Source of the DNA: an uncultured bacterium
Lineage (GTDB): Bacteria > Krumholzibacteriota > Krumholzibacteriia > LZORAL124-64-63
Assembly: GCA_937910695.1 (NCBI GenBank)
Contig: CALEMW010000145.1
Span: forward strand, 1-61,751
DNA length: 61,751 nucleotides
Direction of reading: 5' to 3'
Shown in pieces: positions 1,862-38,450 of the stretch. The notes beneath the pieces are model-generated. The model did not search any database and was not told the origin of the DNA. It saw only the letters and a program-made list of their open reading frames with translations. Position numbers and translations under genes: made by a program. How positions within the stretch are numbered: the stretch's first letter is position 1; every line of letters begins with the position of its first letter.

Positions 1862-3942
1862 AGGCGCTCGCGGTAGGATTGGGCGCCTTCCTGCTCTTTC
1901 TGCTCCAGCCCCTGGCGGCCCGCTCCCTGTTGCCGCGCTTCGGGGGTGCGCCCTCGGTGTGGGCGGTTTCTCTGGCCTGCTATCAGTCGTTCCTCTTCGT
2001 CGGTTATCTGATTGCCCATCTGATCCGCCGCCATGTGCCGCAAAGCCTCCAGGGCATCGTTCTGATCTTCGTGTTAGCTGCGGGGGCGGCGACGTTTCCC
2101 CTGTTGCCCGTGAAAGCAGCAGTAGACGGCGATTCGGTCTTTACGGTGGCGTTGGCCGTGCTGCTGGGCGTTGGTCCGTTGTTCGTGGGTCTTGCGGTCA
2201 TCGGGCCTCTGGTTCAGTCCTGGGCCGGCGACGCCTCCGGCGACCGGGCCTATCGACTGTATGCGGTTTCCAATGCCGCGTCCCTGGCGGCGCTGCTGCT
2301 CTTTCCGACCGTCCTCGAACGCTTTGTGGACGTGATGGTTCTGGGCCGGATGTGGTCGTTTCTGTATGCGGCTGAAATCGGTCTGATCGCCGTGATCGCC
2401 CTGAACATACGTCGGTCGGATGCGCCGCCGCTCGTCGTGCGGCCGTCCCACGCCCCGTCTTTGGGATCCATCGTTGGTTGGATGGCCTGGGCGGCGTCGG
2501 GTGTCGTCGTCCTCAATGCGGTGACCACGGTGTTGGCCCAGGACTTGGCCAGTATGCCGATGCTCTGGGTCGTACCATTGGCTCTCTATCTGTTGACCTG
2601 GATCGTAGCGTTTGCCGGGCGTTTACCGGGAACGCTGTTCCGACCGGCGGCTTTGTCGGGTGCGGCATTGGGGCTTCTGCTCCTGGTGCTGCACGACAGT
2701 CTCGACGCGGGTCCCGTCACGGTCATTCTGATGACCCTGGGTGCCATGACGGCGGCGTGTCTGGCCGCCCATGGCGCTCTCGCCGCATCCCGCCCCGATT
2801 CCGGACGACTCACGTCCTTCTATCTGGCCATCGCGGCGGGAGGGGCCATCGGAGGGGTCGTCTCAGGTTTGGCGGCGCCGTCGCTGGGGCCGCGGTGGAC
2901 GGAACTGGCTCTGGGTTTCGGTGCCGTCGCACTGCTTGCTGCAATCGGGGGAATACGAGGGGCATCGAGACGCGGAACGAACGTCACCGCAGCCATGATG
3001 CTGATGCTCTTGGTCGCTTTGCTGATCATGAAGATCATCGCTACGCCCGAAGGAACGATCCTTCAGCACCGCGATTTCCACGGGATGATTCGGGTTACCG
3101 AGCACGGTGTGGGCGATCCCGCACGTCATCGTCTGGTTCTGACCCACGGCGCCACCAAGCACGGAGCCCAGTTCCTCGCCGCGGATCTGCGCCGCGAGCC
3201 CACGACCTACTATGCTGAAACCACGGGATGCGGTATCGCGGTTGCTGCTCAGCGGTCCCGAACGGATTCTCCGTTGCACATCGGGGCCGTGGGGCTTGGC
3301 GTAGGTACGCTGGCCGCATACGGGCTTCCAGGAGACGAGATTGTCTTCTACGAACTCAGTCCGGCTGTCGCCTCCGTCGCTGCAGGAGCCACCAACCCAG
3401 CCTTCACCTACCTTGCAGATTCGCCGGCGTCTGTCGACGTGGTGCTCGGCGATGCGAGGCTTTCTCTCACCCGGGAGCTTGTCGACCATCCGACCGGACG
3501 GAAATTCGATCTTTTGGTACTCGATGCCTTCGCCGGCGATGCCGTACCTATGCATCTGCTGACCCGGGAGGCCTTCGCTGTCTATACCGGTCATCTCAGC
3601 TCTGAGGGCATGATCGCGGCCCATGTTTCGAGCAATTGGCTCGACCTGCGTCCGGTTCTTTACGCCTGGGCACGCGCCGCCGGCTGGCGGGCTCTGACTG
3701 TGTCCAATCGATCAGCTGGTCCGTCCGATCGGAGTCTTATTTCGACTTGGGTACTACTATTCCGCGATCTCGATGGTTTGAGGGCCCTGCGCGAGCAGTG
3801 TCTTCCCTTGATGGAGGACGGGGTTGTTGAGGTGGAAAACATGAACAACGTCGATTTTGGAGATCTTCCGCCATGGACCGACGGTCGAGGCGGGTTGTTG
3901 GACGTTTTGACGACGGAAATTGTCGCCGGGGCCGTGCGCTGA
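1858..3942 (+). CDS. Membrane-fused spermidine-synthase-like protein
   Basis: The 694-residue protein has about ten hydrophobic helices in residues 1-390, then a soluble Rossmann-like domain (about 405-690) resembling the SpeE aminopropyltransferase fold. Visible motifs are a GLGVGTLAAYG nucleotide-binding loop, an acidic residue in FYELSP, the GDAR motif and the family signature LDAFAGDAVPMHLLT. Such fused MFS/spermidine-synthase-like proteins are common, but few have been shown to make polyamines, so the substrate is uncertain. The GTG start overlaps the stop of the thioredoxin-like gene. Confidence 0.75.
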   Translation: MKALAVGLGAFLLFLLQPLAARSLLPRFGGAPSVWAVSLACYQSFLFVGYLIAHLIRRHVPQSLQGIVLIFVLAAGAATFPLLPVKAAVDGDSVFTVALAVLLGVGPLFVGLAVIGPLVQSWAGDASGDRAYRLYAVSNAASLAALLLFPTVLERFVDVMVLGRMWSFLYAAEIGLIAVIALNIRRSDAPPLVVRPSHAPSLGSIVGWMAWAASGVVVLNAVTTVLAQDLASMPMLWVVPLALYLLTWIVAFAGRLPGTLFRPAALSGAALGLLLLVLHDSLDAGPVTVILMTLGAMTAACLAAHGALAASRPDSGRLTSFYLAIAAGGAIGGVVSGLAAPSLGPRWTELALGFGAVALLAAIGGIRGASRRGTNVTAAMMLMLLVALLIMKIIATPEGTILQHRDFHGMIRVTEHGVGDPARHRLVLTHGATKHGAQFLAADLRREPTTYYAETTGCGIAVAAQRSRTDSPLHIGAVGLGVGTLAAYGLPGDEIVFYELSPAVASVAAGATNPAFTYLADSPASVDVVLGDARLSLTRELVDHPTGRKFDLLVLDAFAGDAVPMHLLTREAFAVYTGHLSSEGMIAAHVSSNWLDLRPVLYAWARAAGWRALTVSNRSAGPSDRSLISTWVLLFRDLDGLRALREQCLPLMEDGVVEVENMNNVDFGDLPPWTDGRGGLLDVLTTEIVAGAVR

Positions 3943-29620: not shown

Positions 29621-30580
29621 GTGGATCTGTTCGACGAACTCGGGGAACTCGCTCTCGCCAGCCGCCTGCGAAGGCTCAGCGACAGGCTGATGCGGGACAT
29701 CGCTCCCATCTATGATCATCTCGACGTGGATTTCAAGCCACGATGGTTTCCGGTCTTCCAGGTATTGGGCCGACGGCCGGCCCTCGGCGTCACCGAAACC
29801 GCTCAGATTCTGGGTCTGACCCACCCCGCCGTGAATCAGATCATCACCTCCATGCAGCGGTTCGCTCTGGTCGAGCGGCGCCGCGATCCCGACGACGACC
29901 GACGGATCCTGTTGTCCCTGACTCCCAAGGGGCGAGAGACCTACGACACGTTGCAGCCCGTTTGGGAAGAGATCCGCTGCAGTTCAGCCGAAATGCTCGC
30001 TGAGGCAGGATGCGATCTGCTGGGTGATCTCGACAAAATCGAACGCACGCTCGATCTGCGCACCACCGGCGACCGTGTTCGAAACCGACTCGGGCTACCG
30101 GCCGACGACGCTCTGGAAATCGTGGATTATCGTCCCGCCTACAAGAAACACTTCGCGTCTCTTAACAGGGAGTGGCTGGAGGAGTGGTTCCGGGTCGAGG
30201 ATCACGACCGTAGGATTCTCGACGACCCCAACCAAGTCGTGATGCACAAGGGCGGCACCATTCTGTTCGCCTTGCACCGCGGCGAAGTGGTAGGTACCTG
30301 TGCTCTGTTGAAGAGGGAGTCGGGCACTTTCGAACTGTCGAAAATGGCCGTCACCAAGAGCCATCGCGGCTTGGGCATCGGCCGCCGCCTCGGTACGGCA
30401 GTCCTCGAGCGGGCCAGGACCATGGGCGCCGAAAGAGTGGTGCTGGCCACCAGCCCTGTCCTGGAACGGGCCTGCCGACTTTATGAATCCCTCGGTTTCG
30501 TGAAGGTACCCGAAGGCCCCGCCGAACAGGACGGCTACGAACGCTGCTCCATCTCGATGCAACTTGAATTGAACGGATGA
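29621..30580 (+). CDS. MarR-type regulator fused to GNAT acetyltransferase
   Basis: GTG 29621 is preceded by GGAGG. Residues 1-150 are a MarR winged helix (LGVTETAQILGLTHPAVNQ recognition region and the RRDPDDDRR wing). Residues 160-319 are a GNAT domain with KMAVTKSHRGLGIGRRLG as the acetyl-CoA-binding motif and CRLYESLGFVKV at the end. Such fusions are known in many bacteria; substrates are largely unknown. Next downstream is a peroxiredoxin gene, so a link to oxidative stress is possible but unproven. Confidence 0.85.
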   Translation: MDLFDELGELALASRLRRLSDRLMRDIAPIYDHLDVDFKPRWFPVFQVLGRRPALGVTETAQILGLTHPAVNQIITSMQRFALVERRRDPDDDRRILLSLTPKGRETYDTLQPVWEEIRCSSAEMLAEAGCDLLGDLDKIERTLDLRTTGDRVRNRLGLPADDALEIVDYRPAYKKHFASLNREWLEEWFRVEDHDRRILDDPNQVVMHKGGTILFALHRGEVVGTCALLKRESGTFELSKMAVTKSHRGLGIGRRLGTAVLERARTMGAERVVLATSPVLERACRLYESLGFVKVPEGPAEQDGYERCSISMQLELNG

Positions 30581-30650
30581 GTCTGCGGCGGAATCGATTG
30601 CCAGGAGATCGGCTCGATCGCCCCGGTTCCACTTTCCCGGAGGATGTTCC

Positions 30651-31124
30651 ATGCCGGATGTCGGTAAGAAAGCACCCGCATTCACTCTCGAAAATCAGCG
30701 CGGTGAAAAGGTCAAGCTGAGCAGCTTCAAGGGTCGCAAAGTGGTTCTCTTCGCCTTCCCCAAGGCCAACACCGGCGGCTGCAACACCCAGGCCTGCGGG
30801 TTCTCCGAAGTTCTGCCCGACATCGACGCCCGTGGCGCCGTTGTGCTGGGCATCAGTCCCGACAGCCCGGCCAAGTTGGCGTCGTGGAAGGAATCGAAGG
30901 GCTTGGGCTTCGATCTGCTCTCGGATCCCGACCATGCGGTTCTCGAAGCCTGGGGCGCCTGGGGCGAAAAGAAGCTCTACGGCAAAACGTATATGGGTGT
31001 GATCCGCAGCCACTGGATCATCGATGAGGCCGGTAGGCTCGTGGACCAGAAAATCAAGATCAGTCCGACCAAGAGCGTGGCGGAGGCCCAGGGGTTTCTG
31101 GACAGAATGGACACTTCCTCGTAG
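30651..31124 (+). CDS. bcp: Thioredoxin-dependent peroxiredoxin (BCP/PrxQ type)
   Basis: A 157-residue peroxiredoxin that reduces H2O2 and alkyl hydroperoxides. The peroxidatic Cys lies in NTGGCNTQACGFSEV; the second Cys five residues later is the usual resolving Cys of PrxQ. The standard TPGC is altered to TGGC. Further family features: PDVGKKAPAF, GISPDSPAKLASW and LLSDPDH. ATG has GGAGG upstream. Ends in TAG. Cytoplasmic. Confidence 0.9.
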   Translation: MPDVGKKAPAFTLENQRGEKVKLSSFKGRKVVLFAFPKANTGGCNTQACGFSEVLPDIDARGAVVLGISPDSPAKLASWKESKGLGFDLLSDPDHAVLEAWGAWGEKKLYGKTYMGVIRSHWIIDEAGRLVDQKIKISPTKSVAEAQGFLDRMDTSS

Positions 31125-32965: not shown

Positions 32966-34075
32966 TTAGTTGTGCCGCTGATGACAGGTAAAGCAGCTCT
33001 GGCTGGACTGGGTGCCGTGATGCTCATCGTGGCACTTCAGGCAGAGCTGGCGCTGGCTGGGGTTGGCGTAGGGGTTGGGCAAGGGCCACGACCTCGATTT
33101 GACGCCGTCGGTGCCGAGGGCCGGAATGCGCATGTCCCACCGTGTGGAACTCGGAGCGGACGTGGCGTGGGCGCGATGGCAGGTCAGGCACATGACCCTG
33201 GCCCCGGAACCAGGTCCGGACATCTTGTCGATCGTGCCGGCAGGATCCTCGAAGGGCACTTGGACCAAGTACGAGGTGAGAGAGCTGCCCCCGTTCGGAT
33301 CAGCGTCACCGTTGTAGCTGTTGTAGCGTCCCGCTTCCTCTCCGGAAAGGCCCTCGTTGAATTCATGCTCGAAGTTGGCACGGCCGACCTGGTCGTGGTA
33401 CTGACCGTGGCAGTTGGCGCACCACCACGACATGCCGCTGCGGTAGGCCGTGTGACTCGTTGTCGTTTCTCCCCCGCCGGACAATCCCACCGGCAACCCC
33501 TCCGCTTCGGGAGCCGCATAGAGGAACGCGAACAGTCCGTCCTGGACGGGTCCGGCTCCGTTGAGCATGCGGAAGTTTGAGTTGCCGTGGGGGTCGTGGC
33601 AGCTCGTGCAGCCCAGTTCGTTGGCGGGGAACGTGCCGCCGGGCGAGAGGGTGTGGTCGGGGTCGGCCGTCAGGCCGTAGCCGGGAGCCACTATGGAGTG
33701 CCCTGCGTGGTTTCCGGAGATGCTGGGGGCATTGTTTTGGGGATCATCGTTGATCTGATCTTCGCGCAGGAAGGCGAAGTTCCCGCCGCCCATTTCGGTG
33801 GGGGGATTCATGGGGTCGTAGCCGAAGACGGCCTGGTCGCCGGAACCGTGGCAGGCGAGGCAGGCGTCGCTGGGAGAGAGGCCGCGCAGCAGTGAGCCCG
33901 ACACGTCGACGACGGGCATGCCGTCTTCCATCTCGTGCATGACATGACACCCCGCGCAGCTGGCGACGCCGTTTTCGTGGAAGGCGTTCGCATGAGGTGC
34001 GCAGAACACGAGGGTCATGAGCAAGCCTGCAAGGCGTTCCCGCCCATAAGACCGGGCCATTGGTCGCATTTTCAA
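32966..34075 (-). CDS. Exported heptaheme cytochrome c
   Basis: Seven CxxCH haem-binding motifs are visible: CAGCH, CLACH, CTSCH, CANCH, CLTCH, CLKCH and CFTCH, in a protein of about 370 residues with a signal peptide ending HANA. Distal His ligands are plentiful. The layout resembles NapC/doubled-CXXCH multihaem cytochromes that carry electrons across the periplasm. The TTG at 34075 is chosen because AGGAG is six bases upstream; ATG 34081 touches the AGGAG and ATG 34069 is the next alternative. Divergent from the S9 peptidase gene. No partner reductase is nearby. Confidence 0.85.
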   Translation of the reverse strand: MKMRPMARSYGRERLAGLLMTLVFCAPHANAFHENGVASCAGCHVMHEMEDGMPVVDVSGSLLRGLSPSDACLACHGSGDQAVFGYDPMNPPTEMGGGNFAFLREDQINDDPQNNAPSISGNHAGHSIVAPGYGLTADPDHTLSPGGTFPANELGCTSCHDPHGNSNFRMLNGAGPVQDGLFAFLYAAPEAEGLPVGLSGGGETTTSHTAYRSGMSWWCANCHGQYHDQVGRANFEHEFNEGLSGEEAGRYNSYNGDADPNGGSSLTSYLVQVPFEDPAGTIDKMSGPGSGARVMCLTCHRAHATSAPSSTRWDMRIPALGTDGVKSRSWPLPNPYANPSQRQLCLKCHDEHHGTQSSQSCFTCHQRHN

Positions 34076-34225
34076 TTCCATCTCCTAGAATGTCGGTACA
34101 TCAACAATGATAACACATGGTCACGGGCTGAGATAGGGCGAACGAGGCCTCGACCTTGCAGTCGCTGCGATGATGATGCAATCTGAACGAATCTGTTTCC
34201 CTCGGATTATTCAGCGGAGGCCGTC

Positions 34226-36397: not shown

Positions 36398-36910
36398 ATG
36401 ACGATCCTGAAGACGACTTTCCTGATTCTCGCACTAGCCGGCACCGCCTTTGCCGGCGCCAACGAAGGCTGGTTCGACCTCGAGAACTGCGGCATGTGCA
36501 AGAACCTGAACAACGACCCCGAGCTGTTCCAGTCCATGACGTGGGACAATTACCTGCTGACCAACGGCATGATGGAGGTCACCACCTACCCGGCCGGGAT
36601 GAAGGATCGTTTCGACAAGCTCTCGGCCTCGATGCAGGCCACCGGCGAACGCCTGATGGCCGGCGAGCAGATGCCCATGTGCGGCATGTGCATGTCCTAC
36701 GGCGCGCTGATGATGAAGGGCGTCGCCATGGACCGGGTCGAGACACCGGCGGGCGCGATCACCGTGATCACGAGCCAGGACCCTGAGGTCGTCGCCTTGA
36801 TCCGCAACCACGCCCAGACCACCATCAACGCCTACGCCGAGATGATGGCCGGCGAGGAACACCCGGGCCACGAGCATCCGAGCAACGAACATCCGAGCAA
36901 CGCCCACTAG
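36398..36910 (+). CDS. Exported protein with two CxxC motifs and a His-rich tail, unknown function
   Basis: A 170-residue protein with a signal peptide (about 1-19). The mature part contains NCGMCKNL near its start and MCGMCMSYG in the middle, is rich in Met, and ends in repeated His-containing units (HPGHEHPSNEHPSNAH). Paired CxxC, Met and His residues suggest binding of copper or another transition metal. No known family was recognised. ATG follows GGGGGAAAACG. It converges on the candidate selenoprotein gene with a shared hairpin between them. Confidence 0.65.
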   Translation: MTILKTTFLILALAGTAFAGANEGWFDLENCGMCKNLNNDPELFQSMTWDNYLLTNGMMEVTTYPAGMKDRFDKLSASMQATGERLMAGEQMPMCGMCMSYGALMMKGVAMDRVETPAGAITVITSQDPEVVALIRNHAQTTINAYAEMMAGEEHPGHEHPSNEHPSNAH

Positions 36911-36934
36911 CTCTTCCACAGAGATTCATGAGAA

Positions 36935-36960
36935 GAGGGCCGGTCCTGCGACCGGCCCTC
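36935..36960. terminator. Convergent hairpin terminator
   Basis: GAGGGCCGGTC and its complement with loop CTGC, between the stop of the CxxC protein gene (+) and the stop of the DUF6132-like gene (-). A CTCTCTCG run follows on the plus strand. Confidence 0.7.
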
Positions 36961-36968
36961 TCTCGTTG

Positions 36969-37157
36969 TCAGGCGTCCTTCTTCTTCCCTCTGGCGATCA
37001 CCAGCCATCCCAGCAACGCCCCGTATCCCACGCTGACCAGCGGGTTGCAGGCGATGCCTCAGGTGCTGCCGCGGCTGATCGACCACAGTGAGTACAGGTA
37101 CCCTAGGCCGGCTCCGGTGAGAGGGGCAGTGAGGGTGAGCCATCGGATTCTCGGCAT
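36969..37157 (-). CDS. Candidate selenoprotein, DUF6132-like two-helix membrane protein
   Basis: ATG 37157 has a strong GGAGG eight bases upstream. The frame gives MPRIRWLTLTAPLTGAG, one membrane helix, then RGST, a TGA at 37061-37059 (codon 33), and GIACNPLVSVGYGALLGWL, a second helix ending in a basic tail to TGA 36971-36969 (62 codons). DUF6132 proteins have this plan with a loop like GTCPITSNP before helix 2, so TGA aligns with the conserved Cys (T-U-G-I-A-C-N-P). After the TGA, CGCT-GGTC-AGCG (37042-37031) can form a hairpin whose apical loop G is about 21 bases downstream, within the range of bacterial SECIS elements. Sec insertion is inference; a Cys-to-stop mutation is the alternative. 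Confidence 0.62.
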
Positions 37158-37263
37158 GAATGGTCCTCCGGAATGCAGTGTAGTCCACAAGATCGTCGAT
37201 TCCATGAGGACAGCAAGCAGAAGGGGCGACTGGCACCCCCCTCAGGAATTCAAGAATCTTCAG

Positions 37264-38334
37264 TTACCTGTAACCGGCGCTGTGCAGCTGCTCCACGGAT
37301 TCCAACCGGTGCGGCGGCTTGAGATACTTGGCGAGGAAACCGTAAACCCGCAGCCTGATCTCCTGCGCCTGCCGTGTATCCAGCCGGTCGAAACTGTGGC
37401 CGCCTGGTACGTCCTCGAAGATCTCGTACTCGAACTCCTTACCTTCGGCCTTCAGCGCCTGGATCAGATGCTCGACCTCCAGGACATTCACGTCCTCGTC
37501 GCTGGTGTTGGTGAAGACCAGCAGGGGGGTCTTCAGCTTCTCCGCGTTCCAGGCCGGCGAGCGTCGCTTGTATTCCTCGATGTTCTCGTGCACGTCCTGG
37601 CCGATGTGGAAGTCGGCGCGGTAGAGGTCGCGGTACTCATCGTCGAGGTAGCCGAGCCGGGCGATGAGATCGCTCACCGGTACGCCGGCATAGGCGCAGG
37701 CGTAGTCGTCGGGGTGCTCGAAGACGTTCATCAGGCTGATCAGGCCGCCGTGGCTCCAGCCGATCATGCCCACGCGATCGTCGTCGACGAAGGGGTAGTT
37801 CTCCAGCACATAGGCGCGGCTGGCGTGCACGTCCTCCACCTCGAGGCCGCCGTAGTCGATGCTCTCGTAGGTGCCGCGTCCGTAGCCGGTGCTGCCGCGG
37901 TATTCGGGCGCCACCACGACGTAGCCCTGGGCAACCATCTCGCGCACGATGTGGGTGTAGTAGGTGGAGAAGTCGCTGTGGACGCCGCCGTGGGGGAAGA
38001 CCAGCAGGGGCGTGCTCGTCTTTCGGTCGTGGCCCCGGGGCACGAAGACGTAGGCCCAGAACTTCACGGGGTTGCCGGCGCCGATGGCCGTGGGCGACTC
38101 CTCTTTCCACTTCGGCGGTCCCCACAGGCGCACCTTTTCGACTGTGGCCACGTCGCCCAGGCGGTCGAACCAGAGGCCGTCGTCCACCTGCTTCTGCAGG
38201 GCGTCGAGGCGGTGGTCGAGGCTTTCGAAGGCGCCGAGGACCTTGTCGAGCTTGGCGTCGAGGTCGGTGTTGGACTGGGCGGCGGCGGTCAGGGGCAGAA
38301 CCGCGATCAGGGCGAGGACGGCGAGGCGGTGCAT
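37264..38334 (-). CDS. Exported S9-type alpha/beta hydrolase
   Basis: ATG 38334 is preceded by GAGGAG; upstream codons in frame have no ribosome site. The 356 residues have a signal peptide (about 1-19), a helical N-terminal segment, and a prolyl-oligopeptidase catalytic domain: Ser in GMIGWSHGGLIS, Asp in NTSDEDVNV, His in VPGGHSFDRL, oxyanion FPHGGVHSDF. It lacks a propeller, so substrates may be larger or it may be an esterase-like enzyme. Confidence 0.85.
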   Translation of the reverse strand: MHRLAVLALIAVLPLTAAAQSNTDLDAKLDKVLGAFESLDHRLDALQKQVDDGLWFDRLGDVATVEKVRLWGPPKWKEESPTAIGAGNPVKFWAYVFVPRGHDRKTSTPLLVFPHGGVHSDFSTYYTHIVREMVAQGYVVVAPEYRGSTGYGRGTYESIDYGGLEVEDVHASRAYVLENYPFVDDDRVGMIGWSHGGLISLMNVFEHPDDYACAYAGVPVSDLIARLGYLDDEYRDLYRADFHIGQDVHENIEEYKRRSPAWNAEKLKTPLLVFTNTSDEDVNVLEVEHLIQALKAEGKEFEYEIFEDVPGGHSFDRLDTRQAQEIRLRVYGFLAKYLKPPHRLESVEQLHSAGYR

Positions 38335-38407
38335 GGGAATCTCCTCGGTTGGGTGTGCCCGGAGATGATGCCCCGACCGGTGTTGCCGGGTCAACCGCCA
38401 ACGGAAA

Positions 38408-38429
38408 GGGGCGGCCCGAAGGCCGCCCC
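38408..38429 (-). terminator. Hairpin terminator of the nuclease gene
   Basis: GGGGCGGCC-CGAA-GGCCGCCCC, located 22 bases beyond the stop of the minus-strand endonuclease gene. Confidence 0.6.
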
Positions 38430-38450
38430 CAGTGCATAATGTCCCCGGTT

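Follow-up and report, generated by a model that had tools for sequence, protein, structure and literature searches.

The locus and its reading frame

The window analysed here is a stretch of 61,751 nucleotides (contig CALEMW010000145.1, assembly GCA_937910695.1) from an uncultured bacterium of the phylum Krumholzibacteriota. On its reverse strand, a frame of 62 codons opens with an ATG at 37157, carries a TGA at codon 33 and closes at a second TGA (36971-36969). These elements, together with a GGAGG ahead of the start, were located where the earlier note on this DNA had placed them, as was an antisense frame over the locus (36928-38439, + strand, 503 aa). The features of the locus are:

36969-37157 (-): gene, DUF6132-related, 62 codons with an in-frame TGA at codon 33, from reading of the frame (a relative in 20 of 80 phylum genomes, all with TGA)
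37059-37061 (-): TGA codon 33, predicted selenocysteine (TGA in 20 of 20 phylum genes including that of the window; all 20 chosen database proteins have Cys)
37165-37169 (-): GGAGG ribosome-binding site, read from the sequence
37028-37044 (-): candidate SECIS hairpin, with a CGCU-GGUC-AGCG core at 37042-37031, two further C-G pairs and a bulged U (from folding; not significant alone)
36930-36964 (-): strong hairpin (-31.6 kcal/mol, z -7.3) just past the second stop, where two genes converge; a possible terminator with no U run
36398-36910 (+): frame of 170 aa, convergent with the gene, that has a signal-like N-terminus and contains several Cys (unmatched in Pfam and NCBIfam)
37264-38394 (-): S9-type alpha/beta hydrolase gene, 106 bp upstream of the gene and co-oriented with it (PF00326, E 3.5e-34)

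The antisense frame was rejected as a gene because it continues across the hydrolase gene, of which it is taken to be a shadow frame. The strong hairpin past the second stop was absent from the list of a terminator consensus scan.

The encoded protein contains two hydrophobic stretches and ends in basic residues. By the positive-inside rule, basic termini lie on the cytoplasmic side of the membrane, and the basic ends of this protein suggest that both termini are inside and the turn outside. A low-confidence structure model (mean pLDDT 63.5, pTM 0.32) has one helix at residues 3-28 and another at 39-56 and puts residue 33 into the turn that joins them.

Conservation of the TGA and constraint on the downstream frame

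When the read-through protein was first used as query against 58 genomes, 18 genes were clear matches, and every one of them had TGA at the same column; a profile of these 18 was then run over 80 genomes of the class, the same 80 to which the phylum counts refer. Relatives were found in 20 of the 80 genomes, one gene in each (that of the window included), and the codon-33 column held TGA in every one and never TAA or TAG. The 20 TGA genes all fall within a single family, represented by 38 of the genomes searched. Weaker matches (L040-L048, E 0.008 to 0.08, and L068, a weak profile match) were excluded from the counts after reading of their sequences.

Under the standard code TGA is a stop, in which case the locus would encode a 32-residue peptide or be a decayed gene, and the frame past the TGA would be due to chance. 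The conservation of TGA itself, to the exclusion of the other two stop codons, argues against this, and so does the pattern of substitution. In the 21 codons after the TGA, mean pN/pS across the 20 genes was 0.63, the lowest among the six frames (0.96, 1.62, 1.19, 0.81 and 1.44 in the other five), and pN was below pS in 168 of 190 pairs, which are not independent of one another; the corresponding values for the 21 codons before the TGA were 0.82 and 131 of 190. Protein-level constraint therefore acts on the frame past the TGA, and both the conservation of the gene and this constraint exceed chance. With the Cys forms and the Sec machinery described below also counting against it, we regard an ordinary stop as very improbable.

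Relationship to DUF6132

The window protein showed no match to the Pfam DUF6132 model (PF19628) at E≤10, there was no PF19628 match in the window's own genome, and the protein used alone retrieved no candidate from the protein collections and none from the named genomes. The link to DUF6132 thus goes through the relatives, 15 of 18 of which matched PF19628 at E≤1 (best 2.2e-4), with other families matching fewer members. The profile of the 18 genes recovered 53 proteins among 7988 scored candidates, and 40 of these carried PF19628 (best such E 4.4e-12). Among 26 of the 53 that were read at the TGA column, 23 had Cys, two ended just before the column (P0036, P0040) and one had Trp (P0002). When 15 of the 20 TGA genes were aligned with 20 chosen Cys proteins, the TGA/Cys column was invariant, and all 20 database proteins bore the Cys that the earlier note had expected there. 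These Cys forms run straight through the position, a further argument against a stop.

The Trp of P0002 would favour another reading, namely that TGA is translated as some other amino acid, such as Trp, through a changed code or read-through. Its near-identical relative P0036, which matches it up to the column, stops exactly there, as a TGA would give, and the Trp of P0002 may thus have been put there by a gene caller; together with the aligned Cys in 23 of the 26 proteins and the presence of tRNA-Sec, selA, selB and selD in the genome (below), this leaves the insertion of another amino acid with very little probability.

The Cys forms share a C-x4-C motif, which appears as C-x4-TGA in 19 of the 20 phylum genes. 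The window copy reads S-x4-TGA, with Ser28 replacing the first Cys, and has Cys37 four residues after the TGA; in a test for C-x4-C that accepted Cys or Sec at both positions it departed at the first (Ser28). Its likeness to DUF6132 lies in length, the two hydrophobic stretches, the glycine pattern and the xxxNP-like motif after the Cys/TGA, whereas it differs in having TGA for the second Cys and Ser for the first and in leaving the Pfam model unmatched. The earlier description as DUF6132-like accordingly holds for the relatives, with their PF19628 matches and the Cys at the column, but not for the window protein taken by itself, which has neither the Pfam match nor the first Cys. On its sequence, the gene is best called DUF6132-related and not filed as a DUF6132 member. 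A tree built from 71 alignment columns of 54 short proteins was poorly resolved and did not separate a single from a repeated origin of the TGA.

Selenocysteine machinery

The earlier note had made its reading dependent on Sec machinery elsewhere in the genome, and this was found. The window's genome (4.14 Mb in 237 contigs, 94% complete) contains selA (441.7 bits, cut-off 267.9), selB (336.3 bits, cut-off 242.25) and selD (358.5 bits, cut-off 125), all above curated cut-offs, as well as a tRNA-Sec (68.3 bits, gathering threshold 47) that ARAGORN calls as SeC with anticodon tca. This complement speaks against both an ordinary stop and the insertion of another amino acid. The selD frame itself contains one in-frame TGA, in KSAGUAAKLSP (around 2992-3912, - strand, of contig C232), at what we take to be the catalytic position of SelD. 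SelD of this genome is therefore likely, on its sequence, to be a selenoprotein as well, and UGA is probably recoded elsewhere in the genome too.

Across the phylum, selA exceeded the cut-off in 77 of 80 genomes, so a comparison of selA with the presence of the gene is uninformative within this phylum and was set aside; all 60 genomes that lack the gene have a selA match. Of the TGA-gene carriers, 18 of 20 have selA, while G001 and G004 (90 and 92% complete) gave no match, a point in favour of an ordinary stop.

TGA forms in a second phylum

The genome of a Chitinispirillaceae MAG of the Fibrobacterota (that of L104) carries two copies, the second of which has TGA at the same column. DUF6132-like genes occurred in 22 of 167 genomes of this phylum, eight of which have a TGA copy (L186-L193); all eight TGA genes match PF19628 (best 3.4e-12). 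Among the 15 non-TGA copies, Cys occupied the column in all 14 that were read (L185 was left out), and in one genome (G083) the Cys and Sec forms occur together. Seven of the eight genomes with a TGA copy have selA, compared with 3 of 14 with other copies (two-sided Fisher p 0.006, kinship ignored); the exception is G123, where no selA was found, and the match in G121 is partial only. Upstream of all eight TGA genes, on the same strand, lies a thioredoxin gene with a WCGPC motif; the gap is 1-18 nt for five of them and 138-297 nt for the other three.

The hairpin downstream of the UGA

The earlier note had pointed to CGCT-GGTC-AGCG as a hairpin at the distance expected of a bacterial SECIS element. 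It is located as described and its form is right, the loop beginning after 20 nt behind the UGA, but taken alone it is no better than chance, which favours an ordinary stop. The hairpin criteria, including an energy limit of -7.5 kcal/mol, were those set out in section 5 of PMC13188914. In the allowed range, the best hairpin of the window reached -16.4 kcal/mol in a register with an 8-nt loop containing GGUC; among synonymous recodings, 15% equalled this value and 87% passed the -7.5 limit. The tetraloop form, folded as an isolated 22-nt piece, had -7.0 kcal/mol (z -0.6) and just misses the published limit, and it does not appear in the best 60-nt fold of the window.

Taken over the 20 phylum genes, the hairpin criteria were passed by 18, compared with a mean of 14.6 and a maximum of 19 in control sets, and the summed hairpin energy was -288.6 against a control mean of -223.8 (sd 21.7), lower than in 200 of 200 control sets. 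An RNAalifold consensus fold of 18 genes gave no pairs. A candidate family stem (columns 39-46/53-60 of alignment A2) had a covariation of 0.235 against 0.130 when shuffled, but it is unusable as proof because a slide by +3 gave an equal value (0.237). Slower synonymous change past the TGA was inconsistent as a sign of a SECIS and was abandoned.

In the second phylum, seven of the eight TGA genes (all but L186) have a GGTC tetraloop (GGGC in L187) 19 nt past the UGA, closed by a stem of 6 to 8 pairs. In 500 runs of recoding with pooled codons, at most 5 of 8 genes reached such a hairpin, vs 7 of 8 real ones, and under uniform recoding the maximum was 3 of 8 with 4-pair stems and 2 of 8 with stems of 5 or 6 pairs. 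The 8-mer CTGGTCAG, with the loop, is common to the window and six second-phylum genes at an offset of one base, and the codons beneath it differ (L-V-S in the window vs W-S-G in the second phylum). This shift into different codons points to the RNA, rather than the protein, as what determines the 8-mer. Compared with the SECIS of E. coli fdhF, the predicted hairpin of the window has the same GGTC loop at a similar distance (18 nt after the UGA in fdhF, 20 nt in the window), whereas the stem sequence is different and the bulged U is on the opposite side.

Gene neighbourhood

In the window's phylum, the hydrolase gene adjoins upstream in 5 of 20 regions (the window, L075, L076, L081 and L082), and in four regions its end overlaps the start codon, depending on the start chosen. 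Downstream of the gene, 11 of the 20 regions (those of L069-L087 and the window) contain an octaheme cytochrome cluster (one member scanned, TIGR04315, E 7.8e-178), which hints at sulfur or multihaem redox chemistry. A frame for a small CxxC protein is present between the gene and the octaheme cluster in 9 regions. The window also has a gene for a multihaem cytochrome with doubled CXXCH motifs (32966-34081, - strand, PF09699). No match to the thioredoxin cluster was found in the regions of the 19 relatives in this phylum (3.3 to 14 kb), and all that the window shows is a weak match to TlpA/AhpC-like proteins (30573-31121, + strand, E 5.6e-8), at a distance of 6 kb.

The neighbours of the Cys forms were counted over the best 80 of 275 named loci, and these counts are not independent because many of the loci are close kin. 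The commonest neighbour was a thioredoxin cluster (one representative scanned, PF00085, E 3e-23), with a frame within 3.5 kb in 48 of the best 80; 54 of 55 such frames are on the same strand as the Cys form and 25 are adjacent within about 300 bp. Also found among these 80 loci were ArsR-type regulators and DUF302 (20 each), a DUF1858-like protein below the cut-off (16), TlpA/AhpC-TSA (15) and two small Cys-bearing proteins that lack a Pfam match, namely a CxxC protein at 17 loci and a membrane protein at 16. These two are represented by L151:5385-5663 and L136:5134-5421, and one of them contains GCPGGTCE, which resembles the motif of DUF6132 itself.

The absence of thioredoxin-cluster matches around the 19 relatives, the octaheme cluster in 11 of 20 regions and the ArsR-type regulators and CxxC proteins near the Cys forms would fit a selenoprotein that serves in metal or metalloid handling or in a cytochrome system, with no part in thioredoxin exchange. 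Set against such a role are the rank of thioredoxin as the commonest neighbour of the Cys forms (48 of the best 80 loci) and its position upstream of all eight Sec forms in the second phylum, and we consider it rather unlikely.

Proposed function

The frame is very likely a real gene, and our preferred explanation, which we hold to be probable, is that its TGA, as predicted, would be read as Sec and its product would be a two-helix, DUF6132-related membrane protein that serves as a thiol/selenol carrier of redox equivalents, with thioredoxin as its likely partner. The earlier observation is confirmed and its selenoprotein reading supported and strengthened, with Sec incorporation standing as a prediction. 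SelB would deliver Sec-tRNA at UGA 33, presumably aided by the downstream hairpin, and the protein would have two membrane passes, between which the low-confidence model places Sec33, in the turn. In most relatives, Sec and the Cys five residues upstream would form a reversible bond; in the window copy, where Ser28 stands in place of that Cys, Cys37, four residues past Sec, would be the likely partner. The electrons would probably come from thioredoxin, since its gene adjoins many Cys forms and 8 of 8 second-phylum Sec forms, and a thioredoxin-linked thiol/selenol carrier appears to be the best fit as to role.

Thiol carriers of the CcdA/DsbD type take thiol electrons from thioredoxin at the membrane. 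The protein described here may be likened to these by its proposed role; it differs in having only two helices and about 60 residues. A broader scheme, offered tentatively and still somewhat doubtful, is that miniature transmembrane selenol carriers in at least two phyla pass electrons from cytosolic thioredoxin across the membrane, that they are linked to octaheme cytochromes in one of these phyla, and that in the window's lineage the partner Cys has moved from position -5 to +4 relative to Sec.

Relation to known selenoproteins and significance

The gene resembles the bacterial families in Table 1 of a 2026 review (PMC13188914) in having an in-frame UGA where a redox Cys would stand, homologues with Cys and Sec machinery in the genome; it differs in that none of the 119 selenoprotein families of that table is DUF6132 (PF19628). 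The deep-Sep paper (PMC12013277), as far as its available text goes, describes nine new families, none named DUF6132, the three hypothetical ones among them being compared by name. A text search of the literature returned one unrelated paper for DUF6132 and none for PF19628; Sec-annotated GenBank records were outside its scope, and such annotation may exist. Among publications joining selenoprotein with octaheme, Fibrobacter or Krumholzibacteri, no title or abstract opening indicated this family, and the NCBIfam families (June 2026) named selenoprotein gave no match at E≤1 for the 18 phylum or the 8 second-phylum genes.

If the reading is correct, it adds a selenoprotein family that ordinary gene calling loses or halves, as in the two database predictions, P0036 and P0040, that break off exactly before the TGA codon. 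With Cys and Sec forms in one family, and in G083 within one genome, what selenium contributes to a small membrane thiol switch would be directly testable, and the pairing with a thioredoxin gene would offer a way into the function of DUF6132, so far a domain of unknown function.
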